Shown here: piece by piece, positions 36,391 through 37,950 of the stretch | Layout of the letters: each line of letters starts with the position of its first letter | How positions within the stretch are numbered: the stretch's first letter is position 1 | From: Pseudomonadota bacterium | Lineage (GTDB): Bacteria; SAR324; NAC60-12 | NCBI GenBank assembly: GCA_004213175.1 | Contig: SHAT01000003.1 | Coordinates: 1-64,000, forward strand | DNA: 64,000 bases | Direction: 5' to 3' | Notes under the pieces: generated by a model | Seen by the model: the letters and a program-made list of their open reading frames with translations, nothing else | Database searches by the model: none | What the model was told of the DNA's origin: nothing | Position numbers and translations under genes: made by a program

Positions 36391-36428
36391 TTGACAATCT
36401 ATTAGCACTCTTTTAAAGTGAGTGCTAA
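36391..36428 (+). promoter_or_regulatory. Promoter with CIRCE operator (HrcA-binding inverted repeat)
   Basis: TTGACA (36391-36396), then TTAGCACTC-N9-GAGTGCTAA (36402-36428), a perfect CIRCE inverted repeat; weak -10 TAAAGT at 17-nt spacing. Confidence 0.93.
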
Positions 36429-36567
36429 CAGATTTAAAATTGTTACTTCGGGTAGTCCAGCAGTGGTTAAAAACGGTTTTTAAATTCGTCTTACAACTCA
36501 ACGATTCAGGGCATTCGAAATTAGTTTTTCAATAACTTAAAATATTTAGGATTAAAAGGTAGGAATA

Positions 36568-36786
36568 ATGGCTAAAAAAGAAAAAGAAAAAGAAATTTCA
36601 CACGAGGAAATCTGTGATGCAATGTCCCGCTTTCTTAAAAAAGGCGGTGTGATCAAAAAGATTGAATACAATGATAATGGTTTCCTTTTGAGCAATGATC
36701 TTGCGTTAGATGATTCTTATACAGAAGCATCAGATACAGTCATGAACCAGTTGCATATGGACTTTGAGCCGGAAACTAGAATCTAA
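36568..36786 (+). CDS. Small lysine-rich protein of unknown function in a CIRCE-controlled monocistron
   Basis: 72-aa ORF with RBS (ggtaggaata-ATG), downstream of CIRCE and upstream of a strong terminator. Confidence 0.75.
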   Translation: MAKKEKEKEISHEEICDAMSRFLKKGGVIKKIEYNDNGFLLSNDLALDDSYTEASDTVMNQLHMDFEPETRI

Positions 36787-36816
36787 GGCACTGTTTTGCA
36801 GGAAGCCAAATAATTT

Positions 36817-36856
36817 GGGAGGATCTGATAAATATCCGTCCAGATCCTCCCTCTTT
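36817..36856 (+). terminator. Rho-independent terminator
   Basis: GGGAGGATCTG ... CAGATCCTCCC (11-bp perfect stem, 13-nt loop) followed by TCTTTT. Confidence 0.9.
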
Positions 36857-36986: not shown

Positions 36987-37397
36987 CTAGGAAGCTAAAT
37001 CTTTGATCGAATTCAAGATTTTTCCAACATTGGCACGAGCGGAAGAAACGTCGAGGTTGTTGTCATCGAAATACGGATGATCGTCATCGACTTCAATGCG
37101 TTTCATAATTTTTTGTATAATAACACGTTCCTCGTCTTCAAACACACCGTCGGATGCTGCAACTAAAGCCATCAGTTCAACCAGTGCGTGCTTTGCTTCT
37201 GAAGATTGAATGTGTTCTAGCATATCTCCAAGAGAAGTGTTTGCCTTCATGAGTTCTTGTTCTTCTGGAGTAATCCCAGCTGCCTTGAAAGTAGCAATGA
37301 GGACTTTTTTTTCTGCAACATGCACTTCTCTGTCAGCATGAGCTAAAAAGCTTACAACAGTTAAAACATTAACAAGTTCTTCTCTGCTAATAGCCAT
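36987..37397 (-). CDS. TerB-like (tellurite resistance protein-like) domain protein
   Basis: VVSFLAHADREVHVAEKKVLIATFKAAG and VAASDGVFEDEERVIIQKIMKRI acidic repeats typical of TerB. Confidence 0.8.
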   Translation of the reverse strand: MAISREELVNVLTVVSFLAHADREVHVAEKKVLIATFKAAGITPEEQELMKANTSLGDMLEHIQSSEAKHALVELMALVAASDGVFEDEERVIIQKIMKRIEVDDDHPYFDDNNLDVSSARANVGKILNSIKDLAS

Positions 37398-37533: not shown

Positions 37534-37950
37534 ATGACTCATGATTCTCGCTACCACCCGGATTGGCAAACTCTTTCACGTTATGTGAGAGAGTTGTTTA
37601 ATTACCATTGCTCAAGGTGCGCAAAAGATTGTAGAGAAGCAACAAATTCACAAATGGTACTACAGGTACACCATATTGATGAAAATCCGGCAAATAATAC
37701 GCTCGAAAATCTTATTACACTTTGTGCCAGCTGTCATCTTAAAATAGAAGGAGAAGCACGTTTACACGCACCTCATCGTGAGACACAATTGGAGTTGTTT
37801 GAAGATCATACCTACATGAGTAGAATGAAGGAAATGCGTGAGGATGCGTTGGCAAAACACGGGTCAGAAGTAAAACTTAGAATTAGAGACTTGGATGCTG
37901 AAACTTACGAAAAAAACGCTATTGAATGGGAAATTAATGACCCAACTTAG
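37534..37950 (+). CDS. HNH endonuclease domain protein
   Basis: CSRCAKDC...LQVHHIDENPANNTLENLITLCASCHLKIEG. Confidence 0.88.
   Translation: MTHDSRYHPDWQTLSRYVRELFNYHCSRCAKDCREATNSQMVLQVHHIDENPANNTLENLITLCASCHLKIEGEARLHAPHRETQLELFEDHTYMSRMKEMREDALAKHGSEVKLRIRDLDAETYEKNAIEWEINDPT

Follow-up and report, generated by a model that had tools for sequence, protein, structure and literature searches.

A 72-residue microprotein encoded by a bacterium of the SAR324 cluster lies under a perfect CIRCE operator, the predicted binding site of HrcA, and carries a short segment that matches the RNA polymerase (RNAP)-binding segment of the Pseudomonas aeruginosa protein SutA. Our preferred reading, to which we give roughly two chances in three, is that the protein is derepressed from HrcA control and docks on the RNAP beta protrusion in heat or proteotoxic stress, modulating or protecting the polymerase there. 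HrcA is generally viewed as a repressor of chaperone genes; across a whole bacterial family, its conserved target is apparently a protein that holds RNAP. If this is true, the 72-residue protein wires proteotoxic stress straight to the transcription machinery. The stretch of DNA that was analyzed, 64 kb in length, is referred to below as the window.

Promoter, CIRCE operator, and leader

The gene is preceded on the plus strand by a sigma-70-type promoter (36391-36419) with a TTGACA -35 element at 36391-36396, a 17-nt spacer, and a TAAAGT -10 element at 36414-36419, for a promoter score of 10/12. The CIRCE element at 36402-36428, TTAGCACTC-N9-GAGTGCTAA, is a 9-9-9 inverted repeat with 0 mismatches, and the -10 element sits within it; the sequence-only reading had described a perfect CIRCE over a TTGACA promoter, and this is what we see. 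No other CIRCE match at ≤3 mismatches is present in the window, for which shuffled sequence gives an expectation of 0.02. Orthologues of the gene were found in 15 of 17 genomes of the genus, and the two assemblies that appear to lack one are incomplete, so that a real absence is unproven. CIRCE lies upstream in all 15, at a similar distance and with 0 to 2 mismatches (one mismatch being an N).

Between the operator and the start codon is a 5' leader of about 140 nt (36429-36567, plus strand), of which the length is roughly kept and the sequence and structure are not. Among the 15 genus members, the promoter-CIRCE block is 89% identical, whereas the downstream leader is 53% identical (mean pairwise, 0.53). 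The leader measures 117 to 141 nt in all genus members despite its drifting sequence and fold. A conserved RNA element in the leader was considered and rejected, given the lack of a consensus fold, the inconsistent stability, and the 53% identity.

These data bear on the notion that the CIRCE match arose by chance, or is a nonfunctional relic beside a small open reading frame (ORF), for which nothing speaks except the small size of the ORF. A chance origin of the match is ruled out by the 0.02 expectation together with the conservation at 15/15 orthologues, and a relic would hardly be a perfect site, kept at every orthologue while the leader beside it drifted, in front of a gene with a dN/dS of about 0.1. 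We regard this reading as already refuted by the conservation data and assign it a negligible probability.

The 72-residue gene and its neighbors

The gene itself (36568-36786, plus strand) is an ORF under purifying selection, with a dN/dS of about 0.06 to 0.12. It is followed at 36817-36856 on the same strand by a hairpin resembling an intrinsic terminator, recognized by sequence and folding, with an 11-bp stem and a T-rich tail (GGGAGGATCTG...CAGATCCTCCC, then TCTTTTCATTTT; folding z = -2.8). A simple terminator scan missed this hairpin because its loop exceeds the length that the scan permits. The ORF and the hairpin after it had both been pointed out in the sequence-only reading, and both are borne out.

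Upstream lies an epmA-like gene (plus strand), itself preceded by efp, and downstream lies a TerB-domain gene on the opposite, minus strand; the 72-residue gene is therefore monocistronic here. It had been called a solitary gene, and that description stands for the window but not everywhere, as in related genera CIRCE-linked members are found in Hsp20 operons. The order efp-epmA-gene-TerB-HNH is kept wherever the genus contigs reach. The TerB-domain gene (36987-37397, minus strand) and an HNH-endonuclease-domain gene (37534-37950, plus strand) are found downstream in every genus locus with a sufficiently long contig. The closest named records that contain the 72-residue gene are metagenome and single-cell assemblies of the SAR324 cluster (Lambdaproteobacteria).

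The HrcA regulon

The same genome encodes hrcA (TIGR00331, E=1.1e-97), which was detected in all 12 genomes searched, this one among them. Four CIRCE sites are present in the 2.27-Mb assembly from which the window comes, upstream of the 72-residue gene, hrcA, groES, and clpB, and thus both the regulator and its classical targets exist in the genome. The proposal of a nonchaperone member of the HrcA/CIRCE regulon had been made to depend on three points, the presence of hrcA, the conservation of CIRCE upstream of orthologues, and induction by heat; with hrcA found and the operator in front of every genus orthologue, the first two speak for it, and CIRCE control of the gene is strongly supported by these sequence comparisons.

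The locus shares with known members of the HrcA/CIRCE regulon (groESL, hrcA-grpE-dnaK, clpB, and hsp20) the perfect CIRCE over the promoter, the presence of hrcA, the conservation, and, in relatives, a place in an operon with hsp20. It differs from the classical targets in its product, a putative RNAP-docking microprotein rather than a chaperone or a protease. No sigma-32 gene scoring over the TIGR02392 cutoff was found in the 12 genomes tested, and the matches below that cutoff are sigma factors of about 600 and about 255 residues.

A putative SutA-type RNAP-binding segment

The protein had been described as unknown, with no resemblance to a recognized chaperone, but it is not unrecognizable: residues 11 to 33 match the SutA-type RNAP-binding segment, or RBD (PF20661). 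The segment (codons 11 to 33; 36598-36666, plus strand), assigned from profile matches and residue register, consists of a helix, an F-L-x-x-G-G-x-I turn, and a strand. By itself, the window protein matches PF20661 with E=0.0026 and 17.5 bits, under the gathering cutoff of 29.3 bits, while 17 of 17 aligned members match the profile (best, 7.5e-8) and a sister-genus orthologue scores 32.0 bits, over the cutoff. The window protein also matches a family of 57-residue paralogues at 34.4 bits (E=2.4e-9), compared to 7.7 bits for the best of 3400 shuffles, and members of that family exceed the PF20661 cutoff, bridging the window protein to the SutA RBD. When RBDs of many SAR324 subfamilies were combined in one profile, its best match across the whole PDB was SutA (7f0r; E=0.005, over KAMEEFLSRGGKVQEIEP); a PDB search with one orthologue alone returned only actinohivin noise.

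The interface of SutA on the beta protrusion comprises L67, M71, F74, L75, G78, G79, V81, and I84 together with K60 and R64, and substitutions there impair binding (PMC9300723). The first eight correspond, with identical spacing, to I15, M19, F22, L23, G26, G27, I29, and I32 of the window protein, and at these hydrophobic and glycine positions every genus orthologue keeps the type of residue, any changes being conservative. Polar contacts of SutA are partly retained, K60 being K8 in most orthologues and R64 being H12 or Q12. On the side of the target, the beta protrusion of the host RpoB retains equivalents of the polar contacts S59 and E73; the Pseudomonas RpoB segment used in this comparison was verified against 7f0r chain C. 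An AlphaFold2 (AF2) model has a helix at residues 12 to 24 with a pLDDT of about 80 and is otherwise of low confidence and largely disordered (mean pLDDT, 58.9).

The likeness to the SutA RBD could in principle be convergent, in which case the protein would be an HrcA-regulated heat-shock microprotein with some other target, such as a co-chaperone, a protease adaptor, or a ribosome factor. The motif spans no more than about 23 residues, the window protein taken by itself falls under the PF20661 cutoff, and matches to ribosomal S8 and S19, at chance level, also turn up. Nonetheless, convergence would have to account for the matches of all 17 members to PF20661, one of them above the cutoff, for a paralogue bridge that far exceeds the shuffles, for SutA as the best PDB match of the family profile, and for eight hydrophobic and glycine interface residues that all keep their type and their spacing, and we consider it rather improbable.

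Several other identities were tried. A phage protein was rejected after a PHROGs search gave no significant match, and the eS19 and S8 ribosomal matches are at the level of chance. As for a named small-protein family, Pfam and NCBIfam gave just subthreshold matches to the SutA RBD and to the PFL_1563 family small protein (NF058628). The latter covers residues 3 to 33, with 17/17 members matching at E up to 1, and the window protein scores 18.2 bits against the 60-bit cutoff of this equivalog; we found no papers on the PFL_1563 family.

The acidic tail and comparison with SutA

Outside the RBD-like segment, the protein has a short, Lys-rich N terminus (MAKKEKEKEI) and an acidic tail (codons 33 to 72; 36664-36783, plus strand) with 10 D/E and 1 R in 40 residues, which is largely disordered in the AF2 model. 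Two motifs in the tail, DNGFLLxNDLALDD and QLHxDFEPE, are strongly conserved.

With P. aeruginosa SutA (PF20661, NF041490; PDB 7f0r, 7xl3, and 7xl4), the protein shares the helix, the FLxxGGxI turn, and the strand with the same interface spacing. The two are also alike in being small, largely disordered proteins in a stress context, and the residues that SutA targets on the beta protrusion are kept in the SAR324 host. They differ in size (about 105 residues for SutA compared to 72), in phylum, and in regulation, the window gene being under predicted HrcA/CIRCE control. SutA has its acidic region at the N terminus, and this D/E-rich region is required for activation (PMC9300723); the window protein is without it and has instead the conserved acidic tail at its C terminus. 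The transcription outcome of SutA therefore cannot be transferred to the 72-residue protein. The putative docking domain is common to both and the activating part is not, and so we do not call the protein SutA; its score against the SutA equivalog NF041490 is 14.1 bits, compared to a cutoff of 145.

Distribution beyond the genus

A sister genus has the orthologue, 46 to 48% identical over its length, as the second gene of a CIRCE-hsp20-orthologue arrangement, seen in two genomes. Two further genera have CIRCE-hsp20-hsp20 followed by a related small RBD-type ORF. Across the family, 27 of 31 genomes, from 7 of 8 genera, have a small RBD-type ORF with CIRCE (0 to 3 mismatches) upstream of it, a count that takes in any ORF with the RBD motif, several belonging to paralogous subfamilies with other tails rather than being orthologues of the window gene. 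The quality of the CIRCE match is bimodal, with 0 to 3 mismatches for the linked ORFs versus 6 or more in the best match for unlinked paralogues. The same arrangement occurs in 3 of 10 genomes of the second family of the order, in which the proteins have no significant match to PF20661, so that the link in that family is weaker. No remaining family of the class was seen to have it.

Because of the Hsp20 operons, the strongest competitor of the preferred reading is a role in protection or as an adaptor. The protein would then be an RNAP-docked tether rather than a factor that tunes initiation, and would deliver RNAP, or its beta subunit while nascent, to chaperones or small heat-shock proteins that protect or reassemble it in heat. 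Such a role would fit the operons of three other genera, in which the gene is accompanied by one to three Hsp20 genes, the coregulation with GroES-GroEL and ClpB, and the missing SutA-like acidic activating N terminus. However, no chaperone-binding motif is recognized in the protein, and in the genus of the window the gene has a CIRCE to itself and no operon partner; we think the adaptor role unlikely.

Proposed mechanism and novelty

In the established model, active HrcA requires GroEL, and misfolded protein titrates GroEL. Under the preferred reading, HrcA bound to CIRCE would cover the -10 element and block the promoter, and heat, or misfolded protein through its titration of GroEL, would lift the block. 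The 72-residue protein would then be made along with GroES-GroEL and ClpB, and in relatives also with Hsp20. Residues ~8 to 32 would grip the RNAP beta protrusion in the manner of SutA with the helix, the GG turn, and the strand, the Lys-rich N terminus would be placed where the wedge loop of SutA lies, and the acidic C-terminal tail would run over the protrusion toward sigma region 3. We suggest an action of the tail near sigma region 3 because the SutA chain exits the groove in that direction. The docked protein may modulate or protect RNAP under stress, be it by stimulation, inhibition, or protection.

The CIRCE regulon and the SutA RBD are each known; their combination, the architecture of RBD plus acidic tail, and the SAR324 expansion appear to be new. 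In a limited search of the open-licence literature, we found no paper that connects HrcA to a SutA-type protein, nor one that covers both SAR324 and HrcA, and none of the SutA papers found ties SutA to HrcA in its title or abstract. Within the papers searched, a target of this kind is not reported for HrcA. The docking mode of SutA has been described in Gammaproteobacteria (PMC9300723); if the preferred reading is true, this mode would be a general, modular anchor, shared by many of the small proteins that an uncultured marine group encodes.

Paralogues and other CIRCE sites

RBD matches at E <0.011 number 3 in this genome and up to 7 in relatives, with 0 in six genomes outside the class. A broader idea, which we hold only tentatively and at clearly less than even odds, is that SAR324, in which no sigma-32 gene exceeded the family cutoff, has expanded a set of microproteins with a common RNAP beta-protrusion anchor and divergent tails. 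HrcA would free at least one of them in heat shock, reprogramming transcription at the polymerase, and the state of the chaperones would thus reach RNAP with no alternative sigma factor involved.

The 57-residue SutA-RBD-like paralogue in this genome (C56:15640-15780) has the motif ISRDQINEAMxRF..GGSIRR...GEPILGSDIWLTEDTLE and shows strong conservation throughout the SAR324 family. It has an RBD homologous to that of the 72-residue protein and a similar acidic tail motif, and it differs in that no CIRCE was found upstream of the copies checked, namely, the one in this genome and two others (L189 and L198). It may be a constitutive counterpart of the 72-residue protein.

Small SutA-RBD-type ORFs also occur in or just past CIRCE-hsp20-hsp20 operons at two loci (L113 and L117), and another (L116) has a CIRCE about 1.6 kb upstream, which itself stands in front of a DegP-like protease gene. 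At five loci in relatives (L139, L147, L161, L154, and L150), CIRCE is also found between FmdB-type zinc-ribbon and LptB-like ABC genes and before Lon-like genes, the FmdB-type, LptB-like, and Lon-like labels being a by-eye reading of the translations. One locus (L165, G049:C68) has three tandem CIRCE-like sites, with 1 mismatch each and about 150 bp apart, in front of groES.
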